From Curvibacter sp. GWA2_64_110 (GTDB taxonomy: Bacteria > Pseudomonadota > Gammaproteobacteria > Burkholderiales > Burkholderiaceae_C): DNA of 64,000 bases. A program made the translations under genes and the position numbers. Under the pieces are notes generated by a model. It was not told where the DNA came from. It made no database searches and saw nothing but the letters and a program-made list of their open reading frames with translations. Each line of letters begins with the position of its first letter. The stretch's first letter is position 1. The stretch is taken from contig MGPC01000026.1 in the NCBI GenBank assembly GCA_001797315.1, forward strand, positions 1-64,000, read 5' to 3'. This document shows positions 17,621-54,037 of the stretch, piece by piece.

Positions 17621-17661
17621 CTGCCCGTAGCTCAGGTGGATAGAGCAACAGCGTTCTGAAG
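17621..17661 (+). pseudogene. 5' remnant of tRNA-Arg(UCU)
   Basis: Positions 17621-17652 match the first 32 nt of the intact tRNA-Arg at 41577 with one mismatch (D-loop), and similarity continues through the anticodon TTCT and AAGC with one extra G. After 17661 there is no 3' anticodon stem, T-arm or matching acceptor strand, so it cannot fold. It lies 19 bp after tRNA-Pro, where a tandem tRNA would be expected. It is the candidate left boundary of an inserted segment. Confidence 0.8.
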
Positions 17662-41576: not shown

Positions 41577-41653
41577 CTGCCCGTAGCTCAGTTGGATAGA
41601 GCAACAGCCTTCTAAGCTGTGGGTCGGGGGTTCGATCCCCTCCGGGCAGGCCA
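41577..41653 (+). tRNA. tRNA-Arg(UCU)
   Basis: 77-nt cloverleaf: acceptor CTGCCCG/CGGGCAG, D-stem GCTC/GAGC, anticodon stem ACAGC/GCTGT with loop CTTCTAA (anticodon TCT at 41611-41613), T-arm with TTCGATC, encoded CCA. Its 5' 32 nt recur at 17621. Confidence 0.96.
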
Positions 41654-41770: not shown

Positions 41771-43009
41771 TCACCAAATTCCGATTTCTTTGCGTGGAGA
41801 TTCCGTTTCATGGAATTCTCTACTTCCGGCTGGCTCGAGTTTTCGAGAGGGCTTCACATGATCTGTCTGCGTCGCCAAAACAAGATAGTCGGCCTTCTTC
41901 TGCATGTCGTCATCCGAGTCGGTAAAGTGAGCTGCAATGGCTTTGAATTTCTCGGCGATTGACAAGAAGGCATCCACGATGTCCGGATCGAAATGACGCC
42001 CTTTGCCTTCAGTGATGATCTCCACCGCCTTTTCATGCGGCATGCCTTCTTTGTAAACTCGTCGGCTGATGATGGCGTCATAAACATCAGCCAACGCCAT
42101 AAGCCGCGCCGAAATCGGGATTTCTTCCCCGGCAAGTCCTTGCGGATAGCCGGAGCCATCCCATTTTTCTTGATGGGAGTAGGCAATCTCTTTTGCGATT
42201 GTCAAAAAATCCAATTTGCAGCCCAATTGGCTTTCGGCGTATTCGATCGCCTCGCGCCCCAAGGTTGTATGGGTCTTCATGATTTCCATTTCGGCGGGCG
42301 TGAAGCGGCCAGGTTTGAGCAAGATTCGATCGGGGATACCTATTTTTCCAATGTCATGCAACGGCGCTGATTTGAACAACAGGTCAATCGCGCTGTCTGT
42401 CAGATGATCGGAAAAGCGCGGATGGGATTGCAATTGCTTGCTCAAGGCCTGCACGTAATGCTGTGTGCGGCGGATATGATTTCCAGTTTCCGTATCTCGT
42501 GTCTGAGCCAACGAGGTCATGGCGAGAATGGTGGCGTCTTGCACGGCGGCGATTTCTCCCGTCCGTTTCGCAACAGCCTCTTCCAGCTGCTCGTTGATCA
42601 AGCGGACGAGATCAATGTTTGCACGACGTGCTATCTGGGCTTTTACCCGCGCCGTGAGAATGGCTGGATTGATCGGCAAAGGGATGTAGTCGTCTGCGCC
42701 GCACGCAAACCCCTTCAAGGTCTTTTCATCGGTGGTGGCGTCATCGAAAAGAATGACGGGAATGCTCCAGGTGGATGGATCGTCTTTCAACTGGCGACAG
42801 ATCGCATGCCCTTCGTTGCCGTGCAAATTGATGTCCAGAAAAATCAAATCCGCAGCAGATGCTTGGCTGGCAATTTGCATCAAATCGGCATCATGATCAA
42901 TTGTCTCAATGTCGTAGATTTCACGGAGCAACGAAGCGATTCCGAAGTTGCAGGCCACGGGCGTATTTGTCAGCAGGACAGAAGGCTTGTTGGCAGGGAA
43001 TAGATCCAT
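41771..43009 (-). CDS. Response regulator with HD-GYP phosphodiesterase output
   Basis: A 412-residue protein. Receiver domain at about 8-120, with the phosphoacceptor Asp in LIFLDINLHG and the conserved Lys position replaced (YIPLPINP instead of KP). The HD-GYP domain at about 165-360 is intact: HDIGKIGIPDRIL, then HQEKWDGSGYPQGLAGEEIP and ALADVYDAI. It should hydrolyse cyclic-di-GMP. Start ATG 43009 follows the kinase stop by 2 bp; ATG 43051 is an alternative with a 40-bp overlap. Last gene of the five-gene kinase locus. Confidence 0.88.
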   Translation of the reverse strand: MDLFPANKPSVLLTNTPVACNFGIASLLREIYDIETIDHDADLMQIASQASAADLIFLDINLHGNEGHAICRQLKDDPSTWSIPVILFDDATTDEKTLKGFACGADDYIPLPINPAILTARVKAQIARRANIDLVRLINEQLEEAVAKRTGEIAAVQDATILAMTSLAQTRDTETGNHIRRTQHYVQALSKQLQSHPRFSDHLTDSAIDLLFKSAPLHDIGKIGIPDRILLKPGRFTPAEMEIMKTHTTLGREAIEYAESQLGCKLDFLTIAKEIAYSHQEKWDGSGYPQGLAGEEIPISARLMALADVYDAIISRRVYKEGMPHEKAVEIITEGKGRHFDPDIVDAFLSIAEKFKAIAAHFTDSDDDMQKKADYLVLATQTDHVKPSRKLEPAGSREFHETESPRKEIGIW

Positions 43010-43011
43010 GA

Positions 43012-45945
43012 CTATGCTGTCCGTCGAGTTTCGCGGGAGAGTGATTGCCATGAAGCTTCACCCGCGGAATTTTCCGATCCCGGGTCGTTGGCAGCAGGGA
43101 AAAATAGCGTGACCAATGTGCCTTTGCCCAGAATGCTGCTGATCTCGACCTTGCCACGGTGAATGTCCATGATTTCTTTGGTGATGCTCATGCCTAAGCC
43201 GGTGCCTTGGACCTTGCCGGAAGTGTCGGCCCGGTAGAAGCGCTCAAACACCCGCTCCAGTTGCTCTTCTGTCATGCCGATACCTTGATCCTGGATAGAG
43301 ATGCCAACGAAGGAATGGCTGTTTGTTGCAGGAGGGGGGGAGAGGACAATCCTTACGTCGGTGCCGGGCGGAGAATACTTGTAGGCATTGGAAAGCACAT
43401 TCAAGATGGCTTGCCTTGCTTTTCCCTGATCGGCCATGCAATAAGCGACAGATGATTCAACTTGGGGCGCTGTCCGTCCAGCCGGCGGAATGAATTCAGA
43501 AACAATCTCTTCGACAAGTTGCTGCAGGTTCAGTTTTTCAATGACGAAATCCATGCCTTTGCGTGATTCAATTCGCGCCAGATCCAACAATTCATTCAAA
43601 ATTTCCGTCATCCGGCGCGACTGCGTGAGAATGATGTTCAGGAATTCCTTCTGCTCAGCCTCATTCAGTTTCTGAGAGAGCAGAACTTCGGAAAATCCTA
43701 ATATGCCCGCCATCGGCGTTCGCAACTCATGGGCGGCGGTGGAAAGGAATTCCGTTTTCATCTCTTCCACAAGGGTTTCGTAGGTGACATCACGCAGGTA
43801 AAGGATCTGCGATACCGAATCGGCTTCGCTTGTCATTAGATTGACGTAGAGGACCCGCCGGGACGGCGGCTTGAGTTCGATTCGCGTATGTTCTTCGTCA
43901 GCCTGCGTTCTTGGTTTGCGCAGCGTCGTCATGTCTGGCATGCATCTCGATGTGGTGCACAGTTCGTTTATTTTTTTGACGAACTCATCCTCGGAAAGTC
44001 CAATGACTGCGCCAGAAGACAGCCCGATGAGACGCTCAAATGCCGGATTGACATATTTCACGCGCAATTCACGGTCAAAGGAAATAAAGGCATCCGGACT
44101 CAATGAGAAGATGGCATCCAATTGTTGAGTTCGATCCTCTACCTGCGCCTGAGAAAAACGCTGTTCGGTAATGTCAGAAGCTGAGCCCGTGACTCGGACG
44201 ACCCGACCCTCCTGGTCGCGTGATGCGCGCCCCCTGATCAGCATCCATTTGTAGTGCCCATCTTTGCATCGCAAGCGGATTTCGATACGGTAAAAATCCG
44301 ATTGGCCTTTGAAATGCAATAAAAGCGCCTGATGTGCTTCGTCCATGTCATTGGGATGTACATAGGAAATCCAATCCTGCAAGGTGATATCGGGTTTATC
44401 ACTTTCATATTCCAGCAGAACGAGCAGACGTCCAGAAACGTACATGTTCCCGGTCATGACATTCCAGTCCCAAATACCTTCGTTTGAGCCCGTAATGGCA
44501 CGATTCCAGCGGTCCTCGCTTTCTGTCAGGGCCTGCACGGCGTTCATCTTGGCTGTCACGTCTTGAGCGGTACCTGATAGCCGGACAGCACGGCCGTCGG
44601 CGTCCCGTTCCATCACCTTGCTCATCAGGTTGATCCACACCCAGCCTCCTGATTTGTGGCGAAGACGGAATTCGCTCTGGAAGTATTCGGTTTCCGCCTT
44701 GAGGTGTTGCCGCAGAGCGGCAGTAAATGCAGGCAGATCATCCGAGTGCATGAGAGAAACAAACGCGTCTTTCCCGTAGCTAATTTCACCAGCTTGAAAG
44801 CCGATCAGCTCGGGGAGCTGGACATTGCTGGTGAATTTTTCTTCACGTAAATTCCAGTCCCATGCCCCCAGTGCCCCGCCATTCAGCGCCAGTTCCAGGT
44901 GTTCTTGACTGTCACGTAATTCGGTCGCCATGCGACGCCGTTGAGTCAGTTCCCTGTACAGGCGCAAGGTATAAAACGAGAGGCCTGTTGCTCCGGCCAG
45001 CAGAAGCAGGCAAAGCGCCGTGGTCTGCACGATCAGCGCATTCCTGCTGGGCGTGGACATGGCCAGCAAGGCGTTGGTGGCCATGCCGGTGATGACCACC
45101 AGCGGATAGCCCGCTATTTTTCTGTATGTGTAAACGCGTTCAACCCCGTCTACGGGGGAGCGTCCAGTGTATGACCCATTGACTTTACCCTCGCCAATGA
45201 GCTGCAGGATGGGCGATTGGGACATGAGTCTGCCCAGTGATGCTTGACCGTCTACCTGTCGTGTCCGGATCACGCCATCCAGACCGATAAGAGTCGCCAC
45301 GCTTTGTGGGGGCAAGTTGAGATCGGAATAGAAGCGGGCGAAATAGTCGGTATCGATCGATACCACTGCAACGCCACCAAAGCTTCCGTCGGGCAAGTTG
45401 ATGCGCCGGGTCAGCTGGATTGACCATTTCCCGGACGCTCGCCCCAAAACCGGCTTGGAGACAAACAACTCCCCTGTGTCAGCGGTGATGTGCACCCTGA
45501 AATGCTCGCGATCTGACAGATTCAGCCCTTTTTTGAAAGGGATATTGCTCAGCTGGAAGATGCCGCGTGCGTCGATGATTCCGAGCTGGGCAAACAGGCT
45601 GCTATCAATGACGCCCTGATGGACCATGGCCTTGAGGTCGAGCTTGTTGCCTTCAGCCGCGTAGCGTGCCATCATGAAACGCAGGGACTGATCGGCGGCA
45701 CGAAACGTTCGCAAGGCATGCTCTTCGCTGACCCGGGCCAGGCTGGCCAGCATACCGTTGACCCCAGACCGTTGCTGCGCTTGGATGTTCTTCAGCTGGA
45801 GATAGCTGAAAGCCACCACGGCGCAGATCAACAGCGCGGCAGACACCCAGATGACAGCAATATGAAAATAGTGCCTCGATGCAGATGAGATTTGTTCTGG
45901 ATTGCTTGCGCTATTTGTCGCGTGCCTGGAGACCGTTTCTTTCAT
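43012..45945 (-). CDS. Membrane PAS-domain sensor histidine kinase
   Basis: A 977-residue kinase. Membrane segments near 24-48 and 300-325 bracket an extracytoplasmic sensor of about 250 residues; three PAS domains follow (about 350-710). HisKA has the phosphoacceptor H739 in STAAHELRTPMAGIL; the ATPase domain has the N-box VLSNAYKYSPPGTD, G1 DQGIGMTEEQL and G2 GTGLGMSITKEI. No receiver is fused. Its catalytic core closely resembles the kinase at 51851. Start overlaps the stop of the GGDEF-EAL gene (ATGA). Confidence 0.9.
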   Translation of the reverse strand: MKETVSRHATNSASNPEQISSASRHYFHIAVIWVSAALLICAVVAFSYLQLKNIQAQQRSGVNGMLASLARVSEEHALRTFRAADQSLRFMMARYAAEGNKLDLKAMVHQGVIDSSLFAQLGIIDARGIFQLSNIPFKKGLNLSDREHFRVHITADTGELFVSKPVLGRASGKWSIQLTRRINLPDGSFGGVAVVSIDTDYFARFYSDLNLPPQSVATLIGLDGVIRTRQVDGQASLGRLMSQSPILQLIGEGKVNGSYTGRSPVDGVERVYTYRKIAGYPLVVITGMATNALLAMSTPSRNALIVQTTALCLLLLAGATGLSFYTLRLYRELTQRRRMATELRDSQEHLELALNGGALGAWDWNLREEKFTSNVQLPELIGFQAGEISYGKDAFVSLMHSDDLPAFTAALRQHLKAETEYFQSEFRLRHKSGGWVWINLMSKVMERDADGRAVRLSGTAQDVTAKMNAVQALTESEDRWNRAITGSNEGIWDWNVMTGNMYVSGRLLVLLEYESDKPDITLQDWISYVHPNDMDEAHQALLLHFKGQSDFYRIEIRLRCKDGHYKWMLIRGRASRDQEGRVVRVTGSASDITEQRFSQAQVEDRTQQLDAIFSLSPDAFISFDRELRVKYVNPAFERLIGLSSGAVIGLSEDEFVKKINELCTTSRCMPDMTTLRKPRTQADEEHTRIELKPPSRRVLYVNLMTSEADSVSQILYLRDVTYETLVEEMKTEFLSTAAHELRTPMAGILGFSEVLLSQKLNEAEQKEFLNIILTQSRRMTEILNELLDLARIESRKGMDFVIEKLNLQQLVEEIVSEFIPPAGRTAPQVESSVAYCMADQGKARQAILNVLSNAYKYSPPGTDVRIVLSPPPATNSHSFVGISIQDQGIGMTEEQLERVFERFYRADTSGKVQGTGLGMSITKEIMDIHRGKVEISSILGKGTLVTLFFPAANDPGSENSAGEASWQSLSRETRRTA

Positions 45946-48191
45946 GTCCCATCCTCTATGGCCTCGGTGTCGTTGCGGATCTGATCTTTTCCCAATGCCC
46001 AATCTGAGAATGTGTCGGGCATCATGAGGCAACCCTTGAGATAGCCCTGTGTCAAATACCCTTTGCGACCGGAGAAGAGTTCATGTTGAGGGGGGTCGCT
46101 GATCAAATCCAACTCCATCGTCGAACCTATGCCGACGACCCAATCCAGGCCTGTGTCGCATATTGTTTTGGGGTGTGAACACCGTACAAAACTACGTTCG
46201 ACTCTCATGCCATCAAAGGGACGCGTCGTTATTTGTGCCGGGTTGGCGCGATACGTTCCGAAGTTGCGCAGAATAATCCTTACGCCCATCTTTCTCAATT
46301 TGAGACAGTGTTTCAGGTCGTTTTCCGAGATTATCGAATTTTCCATCTCGGTCAAGGTCAGTTCCAGCCTGCATGGATCGAGCCCGGTTTCTGCAAGGAT
46401 CTTGGCGAGTACCTGGCTCAGTGCTTCGCTCTTGAGCTGCGCGGCAGTGAGGTTGATGACCATGTTCAAGCCATTCAGTCCTAGCGACTGCCATGTCTTG
46501 AGTTGCTGGCAGGCTGTCCGCAGCAACCAGGCGCAACTCAGCATCCGAATGCCAGTCTCCGCACTGGCATCACTTAGTAATGTTTGTGAAGTGTATTCTT
46601 CCCACGATACATCGCCCAATGAGGAATGTCGCCAACGGAGATGTGCCTCACATGCCAACAATTGAGTGTGGCCATTGCTTGCAACATGAGGTTGATAGGC
46701 CAGGTACAGTTCTTTCTGTTCCAGGGCCTTGCGAAAATCCTGCTCAAGAGCACCTGCCGCTATGGCAGAGGGAGCGGGCATCGTGTGGCTGTACATGCGG
46801 TACCGGTTCCCGCCTTCCTTGTGTGCCTGATGCATCGCCGTCTCGGCATGTTCGATCAGCATTGAGATCTCAATGCCATCGTGTGGAAACAAGGCGCAGC
46901 CAATGCTGCCCCCGATAACCAGCCGCTTTTTCCGGACATGGATCGGCGTCGAAAGGGCTTCAATCATCCGTCTCGCAATGCCAGAAAGTTCCGTCTCAGT
47001 GCGCGGTCCAACCAGAAGGATCGCAAACTTATCGGGCCCTGATCTCGTGAGGATGTCGCATCCGCGAATGGCTTCCTGCACTCGTTCGCTGGCAATTTGG
47101 ATCAGAGTTTCGCCTACTTCCTCCCCCTCGATACGGGCAAGCCACTGCAAACGATCCAGCGTGACGGACAGCAGTGCCACCCGTGAAGCACCACGCCAGG
47201 CGGCGGCGATTTTTTGACTGCCTCTTTCCTTGAACAGAGAAAGGGTGGGGAGGTTTGTCAGCGGGTCATGGCAGATCGCATCCAAGATGGCCCGCTCTGC
47301 CGCAATCATCATTTCTTCGTCTGAGAAGACGGCGAGGTATGCGGTTGTTTTCGTGTCGCGGTCTTTGACAGGGGTGATGCAAAGTGACTGGCGAAACGGC
47401 TGGTCAGTTTTTGAAAAGCTGATGATTTCTCCCTGCCAGCCGCCCTTGACCCGGACTTCCTCTAAAAAGGCATCCTGACACAGTGGATCACCGCGGCTCG
47501 ACCGAATCATCTGGGGCGTTTCCCCGCGCAGTTCCTCGCTGGCATAACCTAGGCCACTTGAAAAGGTGGGATCGACAGCCAGGACTTTTCCCTGTGTATC
47601 GATCACCATGGCGCCTCGATAAATCCTTTTGTCGAGTGCAGACAGTCGTTCCATGTCAGCATTGGCCGCCTCATTGGGGGGCAGCTCTCGCATGAACCAG
47701 CCGATGCGACCTTCTTTGCCCTGGCTTAAGTTCAGAAAATGAACGGCAAACATTTGGGATCGCATTGGATCCCCTCCGGGATACAGGACGAAGTCCGTTT
47801 GCTCTGACCAAAAGTCATCGTTTCCGTCGACAACTCCTTTGAGCATCATTTCGACGTGCGGCAGGTGAAATGGCGCAACCAACTGCTGTAGCTGCGATAT
47901 GCTTCCTTCATTCAGCATGAAGGTGAGGCGGGCACTCTCGCTGGCACACTCGATGTTGCCGTGCTGATCCACCACAAGACACAAGCCTTGGTATGAACGT
48001 GTCAATCTTCCCAGGACTTGCTTGGCCTCACTCAATCGGCCATGTGAATCCTTGAGATTTTCGTGACGCTGTACGAGTTGGCTGTAACGCCCCAGGAGTT
48101 CTTGGAAATCGTGGGCGTATTGCGTCAGCTGACGCTGCACCTCCGCCTCGTCATCCGACAATGTCGATCTGTAGATCGGGGTTCCTGTCAT
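45942..48191 (-). CDS. PAS-GGDEF-EAL protein with degenerate GGDEF and EAL motifs
   Basis: A 749-residue protein: N-terminal coiled coil (about 12-70), two PAS-like regions (about 72-190 and 195-300), GGDEF-fold domain (about 300-455) and EAL-fold domain (about 475-735). The diguanylate cyclase signature reads SGPDKF instead of GGDEF; the EAL signature reads EAHLRW and the metal-binding DDFGTG stretch reads RNFGTYRAN. Both domains therefore look enzymatically dead and may act as c-di-GMP or protein-binding modules. Overlaps the receiver gene by four bases. Confidence 0.85.
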   Translation of the reverse strand: MTGTPIYRSTLSDDEAEVQRQLTQYAHDFQELLGRYSQLVQRHENLKDSHGRLSEAKQVLGRLTRSYQGLCLVVDQHGNIECASESARLTFMLNEGSISQLQQLVAPFHLPHVEMMLKGVVDGNDDFWSEQTDFVLYPGGDPMRSQMFAVHFLNLSQGKEGRIGWFMRELPPNEAANADMERLSALDKRIYRGAMVIDTQGKVLAVDPTFSSGLGYASEELRGETPQMIRSSRGDPLCQDAFLEEVRVKGGWQGEIISFSKTDQPFRQSLCITPVKDRDTKTTAYLAVFSDEEMMIAAERAILDAICHDPLTNLPTLSLFKERGSQKIAAAWRGASRVALLSVTLDRLQWLARIEGEEVGETLIQIASERVQEAIRGCDILTRSGPDKFAILLVGPRTETELSGIARRMIEALSTPIHVRKKRLVIGGSIGCALFPHDGIEISMLIEHAETAMHQAHKEGGNRYRMYSHTMPAPSAIAAGALEQDFRKALEQKELYLAYQPHVASNGHTQLLACEAHLRWRHSSLGDVSWEEYTSQTLLSDASAETGIRMLSCAWLLRTACQQLKTWQSLGLNGLNMVINLTAAQLKSEALSQVLAKILAETGLDPCRLELTLTEMENSIISENDLKHCLKLRKMGVRIILRNFGTYRANPAQITTRPFDGMRVERSFVRCSHPKTICDTGLDWVVGIGSTMELDLISDPPQHELFSGRKGYLTQGYLKGCLMMPDTFSDWALGKDQIRNDTEAIEDGT

Positions 48192-48550
48192 GCCAACCTC
48201 TTCTGTAACCAGCCCGCCACCTGGAGCGGGCTGAAGGGCTTGATGAAATAGGCATCCGCGCCATGTTCCTGTCCGGCTCGGTAATCATTGGCCTGCCCCC
48301 TGGCAGTGAGCATCGCGACCAACGTTCCCTTCAACTCGGGATCAGACTTGATGGCGTCCAAAACCTGTAATCCGTCCAGTTCCCCCGGCATCATGATGTC
48401 GAGAAGTACCGCCTTCGGATGATGGGTGTGCACAGCGCGAAGCGCATCGGCACCATCATTGGCTTCAAGGACTTCATATTCTTTGCCCAGAGTGATGGCG
48501 AGCAAACGACGAATATCCGGGTTATCGTCCACGACTAGAATTTTTTCCAT
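48188..48550 (-). CDS. Single-domain response regulator (CheY-like)
   Basis: A 120-residue stand-alone receiver with acidic pocket D8/D9, phosphoacceptor D51 (LLDIMMPG), T82 (MLTARG) and K104 (FIKPFS), all intact. Likely relays phosphate between the locus kinases and the other outputs. Its start lies inside the upstream PAS gene (29-bp overlap). Confidence 0.9.
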   Translation of the reverse strand: MEKILVVDDNPDIRRLLAITLGKEYEVLEANDGADALRAVHTHHPKAVLLDIMMPGELDGLQVLDAIKSDPELKGTLVAMLTARGQANDYRAGQEHGADAYFIKPFSPLQVAGWLQKRLA

Positions 48551-49742
48551 TTGGGGTTCTCGATGTTCTGGTTTCCGAAGGCGCGATGGCCGTCATTTGG
48601 GCAAGAAACTGCACTTCTTCTTCTGAAATTTGGGAGCCAGCAGGCTTCGATGGCAGCAGAACGGCCAGGTCCTGGGCATAAGCCTCTGCTTGCTGGACAA
48701 GCCGGCAGTCGACACATGCTGGATGCTCTCGATCTTTGAAGGGCGCGCCAGTGGGGAGCACCAGGGTGAAGGCATCAATTCCCCTGCGGCCGACATCAGG
48801 GTTGTCGCTGTCCATCTCGAGAATATCCAATTGCCCACCATGGAGCTTGAAAATTCGTCGGCATAGCGAGAGACGGATATCGGCCTCCAGGCGCAAGGTT
48901 GTGCTGCTGGGGGCGGTCGATGTGGGGCGAGTTTTGGGACGCGTCCCGAAGGCGTGTGCAAAACGACTCGTCATCACAATGAAGCTGCCGCTTTGACGGA
49001 CGCGGATCTCAATTTGGCTGCGTGGTGGGGCACTTTCGCCGATTGCCTCAAACAGTCCCTTCAGCCCGCATTTGAGCCATTCGGCGTTTCCGTACAACAC
49101 GCCTTGCGTGGCTGGCGCATCGGAAAACGAGAGATCGATGACATAGTCCCCCCTGCCATTGCCATGCTGAATTTCAGCCAGGACGGCATCAATGAGCGCC
49201 ATTAATGTCAGGCGCTCATCCTGAAACGTCGTATTCAACTGCTGGATCTGGGCGAGTTGGTCTATGGCGACCAACAGCCTGCTCAAACGGTCAGTTTGGT
49301 TGATGACTGAACCGACATCGGACGTGCCAACCAGTGCGACTTCTGTCAACTGCTCATTCAATCGACTTATTTCGTGACGAACTTCTTCGCTGAGCAGAAA
49401 GTAGAAATGACCGGTATTTTCGAGTTGTGTCTGCGTTACAGGTTCCGGTGCCGTGGAGGCAATGAAAATTGCATAACCTTGCGGTTTTTGATGGCACAGG
49501 TATATGTCGGCAAGGTTGCCCCCCAAGCCTGATGGAAATAGCTGACGGATGCCGATGGGCATTTGAACAGCACCGCCGGCGACTTCCGAGATCAGTTTGT
49601 TGAGCTGTGGCTCAATATCCCTGCAGTGCTTGAGCCAAGGACGTGCCGCGCGATTGAAGTCGGTGATCCGCCCTTCCTGATTCAGCACGATGACGCCATC
49701 GGACATCCGCTCCAGCAACTGGCTGTCAAGTTCCAGATTCAT
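48522..49742 (-). CDS. PAS protein with a degenerate histidine-kinase-like region
   Basis: A 406-residue soluble protein. N-terminal PAS domain ([22 protein letters not shown]); a helical part with [14 protein letters not shown] that resembles a dimerisation helix with a possible phospho-His; then an ATPase-like domain in which the N-box is not recognisable ([17 protein letters not shown]) but a G2-like [17 protein letters not shown] remains. A C-terminal [17 protein letters not shown] segment ends the protein. It may be a dead kinase or scaffold; I do not recognise a named family. Confidence 0.7.
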
Positions 49743-50362
49743 GCTGCAACCCGGCCGGTGCTTGTTTGCTTATGGCTCTCGATCGCATGCGCCATCGCCA
49801 GCAGCTGCGCGAACGGAATCGGCTTGGGAAGAACGGCAATCCCAGGAGGAACGCCACCCCTGCTGACGATGTCCGCTTCGCTCATGCCACTGACAACAGC
49901 GATGGACATCTCCGCGTAGGTCGGATCATCCTTCAGGATTCTCAGCATCTGGAATCCATCGATGCCCGGCATTTTTAAGTCGACAAGCATCAAATCTGGG
50001 CGCTCGCGCTCCAGTAGCAGAAGCGCTTCGATTCCGCTATCGACGGCAGTCACCTGCGGCAGCATGGGCCATTGGGCCATGACAACTTGGTACAGCCGGA
50101 GCAAGTTTCGGTCATCGTCGACCACGAGAACCTTCAGCCGCGGTGGGCCGGACTCCTTCGGCAAACTGGTCGCGGCAGTCATTTTCACGTGCAACAACTT
50201 ATCGACTGACTCACGCGTCACACGACGATGCCCGCCGGGTGTTTTCCAGGCTGACAAAAGGCCGTTGTCGACCCATAGCTGAGTCGTTCCTACGGAAACG
50301 CCCAGCAGAGTCGCGGCCTCTCGTGTCGTGCAAAAAGTCTTTTCAACTTTCATGATGTTCAT
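49739..50362 (-). CDS. Response regulator with N-terminal excisionase/MerR-like HTH
   Basis: A 207-residue protein with the DNA-binding domain first: [19 protein letters not shown] and [11 protein letters not shown] (about 12-50) match the excisionase/MerR/BldC-type helix-turn-helix. A receiver follows at about 76-195 with D82-D84, phosphoacceptor D128 (MLVDLKMPG) and K180 (LPKPI). This is the reverse of the usual receiver-output order. Its start overlaps no other gene and faces the binding protein gene across a 290-bp gap with a 34-bp palindrome. ATG 50353 is a second possible start. Confidence 0.87.
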
Positions 50363-50396
50363 CTGGTGAGTGAAATTGGTGTTGGTCGATGAATTC

Positions 50397-50430
50397 TGTT
50401 AAATTCTATCAAATTTGATTAAATTTAACA
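50397..50430. promoter_or_regulatory. 34-bp near-perfect palindrome in the divergent promoter region
   Basis: Outer arms TGTTAAATT (50397-50405) and AATTTAACA (50422-50430) enclose a concentric inner palindrome ATCAAATTTGAT. Only two base pairs per side break symmetry, so 30 of 34 positions match. It is very AT-rich against the local background and sits 35 bp from the HTH-receiver start; a likely operator for that protein. Confidence 0.7.
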
Positions 50431-50435
50431 ATGTT

Positions 50436-50449
50436 TGTCAGATTTGACA
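50436..50449. promoter_or_regulatory. Second palindrome next to the 34-bp site, overlapping a -35-like TTGACA
   Basis: TGTCA-GATT-TGACA, six bases to the right of the large palindrome. Its right arm is part of a TTGACA at 50444-50449 pointing toward the binding protein gene; no convincing -10 was found at 16-18 bp. Confidence 0.45.
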
Positions 50450-50652
50450 TATAAACGTAGTGGTTTCTTTGCCGCCACCTAGCGACAGGACGCGACTATG
50501 GTGTGAAGCACTATCGGTTTTCTTGGTAATTTGGGCTGTGGCGCGCAGGTCGAATTGGCGTGAAGTTCTGGTTTGTCTCGTGTACCGGGAACAGTCCCCG
50601 AGGGTCAACATGAGCCCTGATAACTTTCTTTAAAACCATGAAGGAGTCTGTG

Positions 50653-51843
50653 ATGACCCGCATTAAAAATTTCAGTTCATTCCTGCTTCTGGCGGTCATG
50701 GTTGCCGCAACCGCGACGGCATACGCGGCAGGAAATATCAAGATTGCCATTGATGCAGAATTCGGCATCCCAAATTCCACATCGGCACAGGCGGTCCGCA
50801 ACGGCGCACAAGTAGCCGCCAATGAGATCAATGCCGCCGGAGGGGTTCTCGGGCGTAAGCTGGAAATCATCGAGAGAGACAACCGGGCTGTCCCAGCCCG
50901 TTCATTGAACAATTTACGGGAGCTGGCCGCCGACCCGGACGTGGTTGCGGTCATGTGCGCCCGCTACAGCCCTGTCGTCGTTGAGCTGCTACCCGAAATT
51001 CACCGCCTCAAGATGTTGATGCTTGACCCATGGGCCGCGGCCGACTCGATTGTCGACAATGCTTATTCCCCAAACTATGTTTTTCGTTTATCCCTGAGAG
51101 ACTCATGGGCCCTGCAGGTAATGATGCGCCATGCCCTCAAAGCAGGGATTCGCAAAGTTGGAATTCTTCTGCCCAATACGGAGTGGGGACGCAGCAGCTT
51201 CAAAGCAGCAGAATCAATGGCCGCCAAGGAAACTCATCAAGATATCGTTGCATCCCAGTGGTACAACTGGGGTGATCCAAGCATGATTGAACGCTATCAA
51301 GCTCTCCGTAAGGCTGGCGCCGAGGCGGTGCTCTTTATCGCCAACGACCGGGAGGCCACACTCCTGGTCAAGGAAATGGCCAGCCTGCCCAAAGAGCAGC
51401 GCCTGCCCCTTATTGCGCATTGGGGCCTTACAGGCGGGCAATTCTTCGAGCAATCCGGGGCTGCCTTGAAGGCCGTTGATTTGTCCGTGGTGCAGACTTA
51501 CTCCTTCATCAACAAGACCGACCCGATTGCCCAACGAGTTCTGGCTGGCTTGAAATCGGTCACCGGCAATGACGATCCGCGCAAAGTTGTCTCACCTGTT
51601 GGCGTGGCACATGCTTACGATCTGGTCCACTTATTGGCCAAGGCCATCAAGCAGGCAAAAAGCACCGACCGGCAGGCGGTTCGCAATGCGCTGGAAAATC
51701 TGGGCGCGCACCAAGGACTGGTTCGTCAATTCGACAAGCCGTTCACTGCCAAGCGCCACGAGGCCCTGACGATCAATGAAGTGTTCATGGCCAAGTATGC
51801 GGACGACGGCGCTATCGAGCCCATTTCTCAAATAAGGCATTGA
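50653..51843 (+). CDS. LivK-type periplasmic substrate-binding protein linked to a histidine kinase
   Basis: A 396-residue periplasmic binding protein with a signal peptide (FSSFLLLAVMVAATATAYA). Type I fold motifs: IKIAIDAEFGIPNSTSAQAV, GVLGRKLEIIERDNRAVP and PDVVAVMCARYSPVVVELLP. Start ATG 50653 has AAGGAG six bases upstream. No transporter genes are near; the next gene, 7 bp downstream, is a membrane histidine kinase, so it more likely presents a ligand to that kinase than feeds an importer. Divergent from the HTH-receiver gene. Confidence 0.88.
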   Translation: MTRIKNFSSFLLLAVMVAATATAYAAGNIKIAIDAEFGIPNSTSAQAVRNGAQVAANEINAAGGVLGRKLEIIERDNRAVPARSLNNLRELAADPDVVAVMCARYSPVVVELLPEIHRLKMLMLDPWAAADSIVDNAYSPNYVFRLSLRDSWALQVMMRHALKAGIRKVGILLPNTEWGRSSFKAAESMAAKETHQDIVASQWYNWGDPSMIERYQALRKAGAEAVLFIANDREATLLVKEMASLPKEQRLPLIAHWGLTGGQFFEQSGAALKAVDLSVVQTYSFINKTDPIAQRVLAGLKSVTGNDDPRKVVSPVGVAHAYDLVHLLAKAIKQAKSTDRQAVRNALENLGAHQGLVRQFDKPFTAKRHEALTINEVFMAKYADDGAIEPISQIRH

Positions 51844-51850
51844 GACCTCG

Positions 51851-54037
51851 GTGAGTATCCGTGAGTCCCTCAACGCGCTGCGGCGCTGGAGCCAGTCCAG
51901 TCTGGCGAATACATTTGCCCTGCGGGCTGCGCTGATTGCGATAGTCAGCAGCCTCGTGGTGGCGCTGATATCCTTGACGGTCATTTATTGGGTCGAGCGA
52001 ACCACCAACCATCAGCATCTTCAGGAAAGGGCTGGTCGTTTTGCCGAGCGCTTTGAGAGCTCGATAGATATCGTGGAAAGTACCGCTCTGGCGCTCGCGA
52101 GAAACCCGATGTTCATCACGGCGCTGCTCGATTCAAGGGGCCGAGACTCCTATGTCGCCCCTTTTCTTGATAACTACAAGTTCCCGATCTCGGTCGCAAG
52201 CGGACTGGCCCTCTGCGATATCAATGGGGAGCGACTGGCGGGAATGCGTTCGCCACTATCGCAGTGTCGTGCCAATTCGACGTTGTTCAGGCAGGTTGCC
52301 ACTGGCGGCAAGACCGCGCGGGAACTGGTGACACTTCAGGACGGTCGTATTGCCTGGACGATATATCAAGGGATTGTTTTCGAATATACAGGCACCACTG
52401 AAGGGGTCGTGGTCACGCAGGTGGACCTGCATGACCTCTTGCGTTCGGTGCCAGACGACCTCGACCTGGCATCCGTTGCGCTTGCGCAAGCGGGTAGTGC
52501 GGAAACCCTCGTCAGTGCGAATGCGGCGGGGGCGGCAACGGAATCGCTGCACGAGGCAAAAATGCTTCTTTTCAAAGGCGCCGCGGACAAGGCCCCATTC
52601 CCGCTGGAAGTCGTGGTAAGGGATGATCTTACGGCCTTCGAGAACAAACTGATTCCGCTCGTGTCGGGCTATGGTTTGGGGATCTTTTTATTGGTACTGT
52701 CGGTCCTTTATTGGACACGGAGAGTCTCACGCATTCTGATCGCACCGCTGACCGAGCTGACGCGCATTTCCCATCAGGTTGCCGAGACTGGCGACTTGAC
52801 CATCGCCGTGCCCCAATCAAACGATGGAGAAGTTCAGCAGTTGGCCAAGACGTTTGAAGTCATGATCAATGCGCTGAGAACTTCAAGATCTTCATTGGAA
52901 GAAAAAGTCACATTACGAACGGCGGAGTTGACCCTGTCTGAGGCGACTACTCGCGATCGAACCGAACAACTGAATGCCATCTTTGACTTGAGTCCGGACG
53001 GTTTCGTTTCATTTGATGCCGATCTCCGGGTTGCGTTCGTCAATAAGGCGTTTCTACGCATTACCGGATTTGAGGCCATCGAAATCGATGGTGTTCATGA
53101 AAAAGTTTTTTCCGAACTGCTGGCGAAAAAATGCCTCTCCAATGCAGTGTTTCCGGGTGTCGCCGCGTTGCGCGCCGCACGCAAGGAAGTGACCAATGGC
53201 AGCACCGATGCAGGAAATGGCAAAGTCCGGCACGATCGGATTGAGCTGGCAGGCCCCGGTCATCGTGTGCTGGAGGTTGGCATCCGCCTATCCCGGACTG
53301 AAAATGTTTCGCAAATCTTGTACCTGCGCGACGTCACACATGAGGCCGTAGTTGACCGCATGAAAAGCGAATTCCTGTCGACGGCAGCCCACGAGCTGCG
53401 CACCCCGATGGCCAGTATCTACGGCTACACCGAGTTGCTGCTGCAGCACGATTTCGACGAAGGGGACCGGAAGGATATGCTGTCGAGAGTTTTCGCGCAG
53501 TCCGAACTGATGGTGTCCATCATCAACGAGTTGCTAGACCTTGCGCGCATAGAGGCTCAGCAAGGCAAGGACTTCGTGGTCGAGCGCTTGTCGCTGCAGG
53601 AAATCGTGGCAGAGGCAGTGGCTGGATTCAAACTGCCGCCAGGACGCAATTCACCCCTGATCGATGCAACGGATAGCCCGCTATTCGTCAGAGCCGATCG
53701 AAAGAAAATGCAGCAAGCCATCCTGAATCTTCTCTCCAACGCTTACAAATATTCATCGGACGTCGATGCGGTTTGCATTGCCTATCGTTCGGCCGCGAAC
53801 CGCCAAGATAGGATGGTCGGTATCGAGGTGAGTGACCATGGTATTGGTATGAGCGTCGAAGAAATGGAACGTGTCTACGAGCGCTTTTACCGTGCTGATA
53901 CTTCAGGGAAAATCCCAGGCACTGGACTGGGCATGAGCATCGTCAAGGAGATCGTTGAACTTCACGGCGGAGAAGTGAAACTGGATAGCAAGGTCGGCGC
54001 TGGCACCACGGTGACGCTCTGGCTACCTGCCGTTTGA
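51851..54037 (+). CDS. Membrane sensor histidine kinase (HAMP-PAS)
   Basis: A 728-residue kinase with membrane segments near 25-47 and 272-292, an extracytoplasmic sensor of about 220 residues, HAMP (about 293-345), one PAS domain (about 370-490), HisKA with H514 in STAAHELRTPMASIY, and an ATPase domain with LLSNAYKYSSDVD, DHGIGMSVEEM and GTGLGMSIVKEI. GTG start 7 bp after the binding protein gene. Core sequences are shared with the kinase at 43012, indicating duplication. No receiver domain. Confidence 0.9.
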   Translation: MSIRESLNALRRWSQSSLANTFALRAALIAIVSSLVVALISLTVIYWVERTTNHQHLQERAGRFAERFESSIDIVESTALALARNPMFITALLDSRGRDSYVAPFLDNYKFPISVASGLALCDINGERLAGMRSPLSQCRANSTLFRQVATGGKTARELVTLQDGRIAWTIYQGIVFEYTGTTEGVVVTQVDLHDLLRSVPDDLDLASVALAQAGSAETLVSANAAGAATESLHEAKMLLFKGAADKAPFPLEVVVRDDLTAFENKLIPLVSGYGLGIFLLVLSVLYWTRRVSRILIAPLTELTRISHQVAETGDLTIAVPQSNDGEVQQLAKTFEVMINALRTSRSSLEEKVTLRTAELTLSEATTRDRTEQLNAIFDLSPDGFVSFDADLRVAFVNKAFLRITGFEAIEIDGVHEKVFSELLAKKCLSNAVFPGVAALRAARKEVTNGSTDAGNGKVRHDRIELAGPGHRVLEVGIRLSRTENVSQILYLRDVTHEAVVDRMKSEFLSTAAHELRTPMASIYGYTELLLQHDFDEGDRKDMLSRVFAQSELMVSIINELLDLARIEAQQGKDFVVERLSLQEIVAEAVAGFKLPPGRNSPLIDATDSPLFVRADRKKMQQAILNLLSNAYKYSSDVDAVCIAYRSAANRQDRMVGIEVSDHGIGMSVEEMERVYERFYRADTSGKIPGTGLGMSIVKEIVELHGGEVKLDSKVGAGTTVTLWLPAV

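Follow-up and report, generated by a model that had tools for sequence, protein, structure and literature searches.

We analysed a 64,000-nucleotide stretch of DNA from Curvibacter sp. GWA2_64_110 (contig MGPC01000026.1; hereafter the window), in which eight signalling genes occupy positions 41771 to 54037. An earlier note, made from the sequence alone, had described a multi-kinase locus linked to cyclic di-GMP (c-di-GMP), with genes that belong together. All eight genes are open where the note had read them and carry the domains it had assigned (open reading frame list and Pfam), and the gene order recurs in other genomes. Therefore, the eight-gene set is a real, co-inherited signalling system and not a chance cluster. 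It includes PASK, a pseudo-histidine-kinase that adjoins a stand-alone receiver, REC, in nearly all neighbourhoods that we compared. Below, L-codes designate the loci or neighbourhoods compared and G-codes designate genomes, G000 being the window's own.

Six genes lie on the minus strand and are read leftwards from a divergent region (50363-50637). The first is HTH-REC (49739-50362), with an N-terminal helix-turn-helix (HTH) domain of the excisionase/MerR type and a C-terminal receiver (Pfam HTH_17 and receiver matches, TIGR01764 excise and alignment). It is followed by the 406-residue PASK (48522-49742), which combines PAS and pseudo-kinase regions and was assigned by alignments, HHalign, PDB profile matches and predicted fold. 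Next come REC (48188-48550; Pfam and receiver alignment) and a PAS-GGDEF-EAL pseudoenzyme (45942-48191; Pfam and motif alignment). HK1 (43012-45945) is a membrane histidine kinase with a dCache-like periplasmic domain, PAS domains, HisKA and HATPase_c (Pfam, sequence boxes and transmembrane segments). The last gene (41771-43009) encodes an HD-GYP phosphodiesterase with a degenerate receiver, or pseudo-receiver (motif alignment and Pfam; E-values of 1.7e-30 for HD_5 and 4.5e-11 for Response_reg). The likely start of HK1 is 45945, in a frame that extends to 46032. The HD-GYP frame could begin at 43051, but homologues favour 43009. With these two starts, successive genes overlap by 4, 29, 4 and 4 bp and a 2-bp gap precedes the HD-GYP gene, in line with the run of short overlaps in the earlier note. 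Given this spacing, the six genes very likely form a single transcript.

The other two genes lie on the plus strand, separated by 7 bp. The first (50638-51843) encodes a periplasmic binding protein (SBP) of the Peripla_BP_6 family with a hydrophobic N-terminus (Pfam, PDB relatives and pairing with the kinase domain). The second, HK2 (51851-54037), is a membrane histidine kinase with HAMP, PAS, HisKA and HATPase_c domains (Pfam, boxes and transmembrane segments). Its periplasmic region (51986-52660) has no confident Pfam family and is the domain that travels with the SBP. Both kinases have two hydrophobic regions, the SBP has one, at the N-terminus, and the remaining five proteins have none.

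Conservation of the gene cluster

In 31 of 34 neighbourhoods, REC is the adjacent same-strand neighbour of PASK (31 of 35 rows before L053, a second fetch of the L051 place, was dropped). As for the misses, the receiver at L051 lies 4 kb off on the other strand, the L080 contig ends at PASK, and PASK at L145 was matched over its first 202 residues only. HTH-REC adjoins PASK in 12 of the 14 neighbourhoods of clade 1, the clade of the PASK tree to which the window belongs; the exceptions are L145 and L164. A histidine kinase of this type is present within 10 kb of PASK in 30 of 35 neighbourhoods, the misses being four short contigs (L041, L063, L080 and L145) and L164. These counts include both of the near-copies L043 and L044, and exclude two ordinary kinases (L061 and L062), the unannotated L091-L142 and also L087-L090. 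Thus, the genes do not occur merely as unrelated singles, a pattern that the earlier note had raised against its own reading.

More extended similarity is seen in several loci. The order of all six minus-strand genes is repeated in L039 and L040, except that L039 has no EAL part. L059 likewise has HTH-REC, PASK, REC, GGDEF(-EAL), a histidine kinase and HD-GYP in this order, plus one added receiver. The core is kept with GGDEF proteins and a kinase in L042-L044, L143 and L144, where an HD-GYP gene is not in the available DNA, and the L041 contig ends early. In a genus relative (L164:6946-10889), a clade-1 PASK is found with REC and HD-GYP, and an OmpR-type regulator takes the place of HTH-REC. 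Given this replacement, the DNA-binding output of the system seems exchangeable. The phosphorylation residues of REC (acidic pair, Asp, Thr and Lys) are intact in 12 of 12 aligned receivers, including that of the window, and by our reading of the alignment those of the HTH-REC receiver are intact as well.

We defined PASK membership by a gap in the scores of the order search, which separates scores of at least 161 bits from those of at most 88.5 bits. Nine of 399 genomes, the window's own included, lie above this gap. Clade-1 PASKs (at least 139 bits) occur at 10 places in 8 of 399 genomes of the family, again counting the window, and further members are present in other families of the order (L058 and L059) and in the genus relative L164. 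Judging from named relatives, the order would be Burkholderiales and the host a member of Comamonadaceae. In the class search (369 genomes, at most 5 candidates scored per genome), only the window's own genome rose above the background of active kinases, a negative that is not proof of absence given the number of candidates scored. Tallies made with the PASK profile at E 1e-8 consist mostly of ordinary kinases, which are also mixed into the tally of 29/200 at E 1e-3.

Within the genus, 13 of 26 genomes have the PASK family, and exactly these 13 also have an HTH-REC homologue. Apart from the window's own, 12 genomes bear PASK; in 11 of them the two genes are on one contig within about 7 kb, and in G1166 they are on two contigs. 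These data bear on the idea that the cassette is an island on which unrelated signalling genes came together by chance. The low-GC segment does adjoin a tRNA gene, and the composition of the neighbours varies among genomes, as such an idea would predict. However, the same six-gene order in L039, L040 and L059 and the joint occurrence of PASK and HTH-REC in the genus refute it for the core, and it is hardly credible for the whole.

The PASK family

Neither Pfam nor NCBIfam has a family for PASK. The window protein has no Pfam match at E 1e-3, its weak matches being to PAS families only (0.0023 for PAS_8, and 0.0075), and the NCBIfam scan gave only a PhoR match below the cut-off. Relationships emerge at the level of the family, since 6 of the 14 members of alignment A1 match HATPase_c at E ≤0.01. 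Moreover, the family profile aligns with the active kinases of the same loci from PAS through CA (HHalign 98.7%, E 3.5e-16). HK853, RetS and DivL are among the matches of this profile to solved PDB chains, with DivL at E 0.0031 and other kinases better (6.7e-8). An AlphaFold model has the order PAS-DHp-CA, but it is a weak model (mean pLDDT 55.6) that we used for element order only; Foldseek searches with it retrieved histidine kinases and phytochromes at E 3e-11 and up.

Despite this homology, most residues expected of a working kinase are gone. In an alignment of 27 PASKs, in which we counted the N, G1 and G2 boxes by our own reading, a single row has a His at the phospho-accepting site; the other 26, that of the window among them, do not. 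No row (0/27) has a full DxGxG. Of the 26 rows that extend over the G2 motif, L056 and L057 alone have GxGxG, and no clade-1 row does. All 11 clade-1 rows are without the N box, which 8 of 16 clade-2 rows retain. The window PASK has none of the N, G1 and G2 boxes.

Another feature of the family is a tail after the CA-like domain with the motif QAxxYAxDLAxL, which is found in 28 of 34 PASK proteins. The tree splits into two clades with support of 100/100, and the window belongs to clade 1. A CxxC motif precedes the tail in all 13 clade-1 proteins and in none of 21 clade-2 proteins (the C-terminus of the window protein is encoded at 48522-48740). The clade-1 CxxC, beside a conserved helix motif, is possibly a metal or redox site. 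Judged by its sequence, PASK is conserved as an open frame with a conserved tail, unlike a gene in decay. Some genomes carry several copies: three PASK genes are close together at L163:6146-12301 (G1152) and three are also present in G1155, an expansion of the pseudokinase.

The earlier note had proposed a branched phosphorelay. PASK is the only candidate for a His-phosphotransfer station in such a relay, and it would have to act like Spo0B or ChpT in a pathway from a histidine kinase to REC, then PASK, then HTH-REC. The gene order HTH-REC, PASK, REC suggested this role, and so did a His in the sequence RHE, which lies four residues past the normal site in the window, L039, L040, L041 and L080; L058 has a His in the site column itself. 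However, the shifted His is present in only 5 of 27 rows and is missing in clade-1 loci L042, L043, L058, L059, L063 and L164. We therefore set this candidate back, L058 being the one exception to the loss of the site His, and regard a true phosphorelay as very improbable.

The main rival to the mechanism proposed below is that PASK resembles RetS. It would then use its DHp helices to heterodimerize with HK1 or HK2, inhibiting the kinase or siphoning off its phosphate, and REC would be an ordinary kinase target. The retained DHp and CA homology, the presence of RetS among the PDB matches and the frequent kinase within 10 kb are all compatible with this idea. By contrast, the closest neighbour of PASK is REC, while the type and place of the kinase vary. 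We consider a RetS-like PASK rather unlikely.

Inputs, c-di-GMP proteins and apparent mobility

HK1 and HK2 both have intact His, N, G1 and G2 boxes. The earlier note had called the kinases related, and their cores are indeed 54% identical, versus 33% for the next kinase in the genome, making them a paralogous pair that likely shares targets.

The input to HK2 appears to involve the SBP. The periplasmic domain of window HK2 is also present in the SBP-adjacent kinases of L058 and L066 (E 3.5e-10 and 3.4e-8 to the window), and kinases without such an SBP (window HK1, L040, L043, L143 and the second kinase of L066) have no significant match to it, the best being E 0.054 for L040. A 45-residue match between L066 and L143 at 0.002 falls outside this domain. 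Searching with a profile of the domain located it in 16 of 399 genomes of the order. A gene of the SBP family immediately precedes it on the same strand in 14 of the 16, or in 12 of 14 once the two loci from which the profile was built are set aside. Within 1.5 kb of the domain, L178 and L182 have no member of the SBP family. Downstream of the domain, the proteins resemble kinases or, in L173, L174 and L184, proteins of the GGDEF type. The cluster has no transporter genes, and the SBP gene is beside that of a receptor with two transmembrane segments, HK2. Given the 14 of 16 pairings, the SBP is a probable co-receptor of HK2, and the periplasmic-ligand branch of the earlier note is well supported.

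The HK2-type domain itself has no confident Pfam name (dCache_1 is best at E 0.066, in 2 of 3 members), and its model, made from two sequences, is too poor to interpret (mean pLDDT 42.3). According to published work, branched-chain amino acids are the predicted ligands of most Peripla_BP_6 members, and receptors stimulated by SBPs are general and widespread (PMC9602780). L066 combines several binding-protein families at a single locus: beside the pair of Peripla_BP_6 protein and kinase, another kinase is preceded 6 bp away by an SBP_bac_3 protein and followed by a Phosphonate-bd protein (L066:17090-20644).

The GGDEF motif of the window pseudoenzyme reads GPDKF, and its c-di-GMP I-site, RGCD, is retained. 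In the EAL domain, the first Glu is kept, but the acids of DDFG and the Lys are lost. The motif alignment thus agrees with the earlier note in that the GGDEF motif is broken, and most EAL catalytic residues are missing. A broken GGDEF with RGCD kept is shared by the window, L039, L040 and L041 (4/4).

The HD and GYP motifs of the phosphodiesterase are intact. By contrast, in its receiver the acidic pair is replaced by TN, the Lys by Leu and the Thr by Asp, while the phospho-Asp remains. Among relatives, L039 has Ser for the phospho-Asp, and L040 and L164 are degenerate, so that three of four relatives with a receiver have a degenerate one; no receiver was seen in seven aligned HD-GYP homologues near clade-2 PASKs. 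Judging from these residues, phosphorylation of the receiver is probably not the switch of c-di-GMP hydrolysis, contrary to the direct phospho-control implied by the earlier note. A review calls the mechanisms by which pseudo-receivers switch a mystery (PMC12632262).

These residues also weigh on a classical branched two-component pathway, in which the kinases would phosphorylate three receivers, including that of the HD-GYP protein, and in which PASK and GGDEF-EAL would be decaying remnants. Three Pfam receiver domains, intact HD-GYP motifs, the phospho-Asp of the window HD-GYP receiver and the intact receiver of L059 are what such a pathway would lead one to expect. The degenerate receivers in the window, L039, L040 and L164, their lack in the clade-2 homologues and the conserved open frame and tail of PASK are not, and we find this pathway distinctly unlikely.

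The divergent promoter region contains a 34-bp near-perfect palindrome, TGTTAAATT...AATTTAACA (50397-50430), which is a candidate operator; the pattern that we searched with matches a single place in the genome. Upstream of HTH-REC in relatives, no similar palindrome was found; L143 and L080 carry other ones. The 8-mer AAATATGA is present in 11 of 12 upstream stretches, against maxima of 8-10 in shuffles, which is too weak to use. Therefore, we do not count conservation of the operator as support.

The cassette looks mobile, given its low GC content and its tRNA neighbour. GC is 0.52-0.55 across 42-54 kb, compared to 0.62-0.64 in flanking 2-kb steps. A complete tRNA-Arg (TCT) gene marks the left edge (41577-41653, plus strand; ARAGORN), and a truncated 5′ copy (about 17623-17657) is located 24 kb before it, directly after tRNA-Pro. 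The murI and tRNA-Pro regions are 36.7 kb apart in the window and about 0.7 kb apart in the genus relative G1154 (L162). In G1157 (L159), which is 91% identical there, tRNA-Arg and murI are about 3.7 kb apart, with no match to the window between them. From this spacing, the signalling cassette appears to have been inserted at the tRNA-Arg site, and so does the 17.6-41.6 kb stretch. By our reading of its genes, the latter stretch holds a benzoyl-CoA (box) type cluster for aromatic degradation with its own ABC transporter. In another bacterial family, a clade-2 cluster of HTH-REC, PASK and REC (L057:10631-12216) adjoins a murI homologue, as the window cassette does. A search of plasmids with HTH-REC gave 159 records, 6 of which cover 80% of the protein, the best-ranked being 42% identical.

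In six genus neighbourhoods (L050, L163, L165, L167, L168 and L169), the system adjoins a pobA-like gene, and in five of the six it lies between this gene and a CaiB-type gene (these names are our reading; the Pfam families are FAD_binding_3 and CoA_transf_3). In the window's own genome, the place between these two genes is occupied by HTH-REC alone (L166:6266-9266, on contig C7 of G000). By parsimony, the resident PASK, REC and kinase were lost here and the clade-1 cassette is carried elsewhere, so that this orphan HTH-REC is an apparent remnant of the resident clade-2 system that genus relatives have kept.

Proposed mechanism and known systems

We tentatively favor the reading, held with somewhat less than even confidence, that the cassette is a mobile multi-input two-component operon with the PASK pseudokinase at its center, where PASK would read phosphorylated REC and feed back. 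An intact single-domain receiver almost constantly beside a dead PASK recalls DivK and DivL. In Caulobacter, the pseudokinase DivL binds phosphorylated DivK and inhibits CckA (PMC5361649). What we observe in favor of the reading is the gene order and its conservation, the pattern of retained and lost residues and the pairing of the SBP with the HK2 domain. The steps that we infer, including every phosphotransfer, every docking and the direction of effect, would be as follows. The SBP would bind a periplasmic small molecule, amino-acid-like by its family, and dock on HK2, and HK1 would sense a second input through its own Cache and PAS domains. Both kinases would phosphorylate REC and HTH-REC. 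PASK would dock on phosphorylated REC and then damp or redirect the kinases or HTH-REC, as DivL does with phosphorylated DivK, so that the signal would pass from a receiver to a kinase-like protein. The dead GGDEF-EAL protein would read c-di-GMP through its I-site, and the HD-GYP protein would degrade c-di-GMP under the control of protein contacts made via its pseudo-receiver instead of phosphorylation. HTH-REC would set transcription, perhaps also of its own operon via the palindrome.

A wider version of this reading is possible, though doubtful. PASK and REC would be a reverse-flow module of Burkholderiales that arose independently of DivL and DivK. In it, a cytosolic pseudokinase family would read a phosphorylated stand-alone receiver and write back onto active kinases and an HTH-first regulator, with exchangeable sensors (an SBP plus its docking domain), DNA-binding regulators and c-di-GMP parts, and the module would have spread as a cassette, which in this genome would substitute for a lost resident copy.

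Several observations weigh against the favored mechanism. In the PASK of L058, the phospho-site column does contain a His, with Gly after it. ATP binding may persist in some clade-2 members, as L056 and L057 retain GxGxG and the Asn of the N box. TM-scores by query length are at most 0.30 among the 50 Foldseek matches listed for the PASK model, whose mean pLDDT marks it as weak. The DHp-like fold of PASK could serve its heterodimerization with HK1 or HK2 just as well as docking of phosphorylated REC. The PASK-like gene of L051 has no REC beside it, and L066 has HTH-REC, REC, GGDEF, an SBP and two kinases without PASK. HTH-REC belongs to a wider family, in that only 3 of 28 loci found with it (L063-L090, several of them short contigs) hold PASK. 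In favor of the mechanism, PASK and REC distances are correlated over 24 loci (r 0.93, with 0 of 2000 permutations as high), but descent as one unit, true of any operon, suffices to explain this. Among the c-di-GMP parts, the I-site is lost along with GGDEF in L043a, L143a, L144a and L058, and GGDEF is intact in L042, L043b, L144b, L059 and L066, so a c-di-GMP receptor role would not be family-wide. The HD-GYP receiver of L059 is intact, and several clade-1 loci have no HD-GYP gene nearby.

Whether signal flow is reversed in other two-component systems was a question raised in the DivL study (PMC5361649). The cassette is a place to test such backward flow, from a regulator into a kinase-like protein. 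PASK represents a pseudokinase family that Pfam and NCBIfam do not model. The family occurs in several families of one order and has an almost invariable receiver partner, and since the window protein lacks membrane segments, it is open to direct binding tests. The SBP result offers a genomic handle on the recruitment of binding proteins as co-receptors, in that one SBP family stays with a single unnamed periplasmic domain whether the cytoplasmic output is a kinase or a GGDEF-type protein.

The earlier note had stated that the locus matches no named system. This holds for the gene set, of which we recognized no description among the papers listed by searches of open-licence PMC text (subscription papers were outside this scope), but it does not hold for the logic, as systems with similar logic are published. 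The window HD-GYP protein differs from phospho-regulated REC-HD-GYP proteins of the RpfG type in that its receiver is not intact, and PASK differs from Spo0B and ChpT in that it lacks the conserved phospho-accepting His of the DHp domain. PopA and CdgG are c-di-GMP receptors with a degenerate GGDEF domain, in which the GGDEF motif is broken and the RxxD I-site is kept. The proteins of the window, L039, L040 and L041 share this combination and are putative receptors of this type. Unlike PopA and CdgG, the window GGDEF domain is fused to a dead EAL domain, and the I-site is not present in all relatives.

NspS and MbaA are similar to the plus-strand pair in that a periplasmic SBP is encoded beside the membrane receptor on which it acts (PMC9993111), as the window SBP would on HK2. 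However, the window partner is a histidine kinase and its SBP belongs to Peripla_BP_6; related pairs with GGDEF-type output occur in L173, L174 and L184. The Hno system of Shewanella oneidensis (HnoK/HnoS-HnoB/HnoC/HnoD) resembles the cassette in that it combines two kinases with several regulators and a transcription factor, and in that c-di-GMP turnover involves a dead enzyme as partner (PMC6335343). By contrast, a search of the eight window proteins found no H-NOX domain, and the window adds a pseudokinase and an SBP. In addition, the window has intact HD-GYP motifs and a dead GGDEF-EAL protein, while in Hno the HD-GYP is degenerate and the EAL active (PMC6335343). Thus, the window system lacks defining features of Hno.

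The resemblance to DivK and DivL is one of sequence and adjacency. In both cases, a protein with PAS and a histidine kinase fold lacks the phospho-accepting His, and there is an intact single-domain receiver, which in the window is encoded beside PASK. Kinases upstream and a DNA-binding regulator downstream are a further likeness (PMC5361649). In contrast to DivL, the window PASK also lacks the N, G1 and G2 boxes and any hydrophobic segment, and has a C-terminal tail of its own, with the CxxC of clade 1. Finally, the window genes form one cluster, in which no CckA or ChpT was seen.

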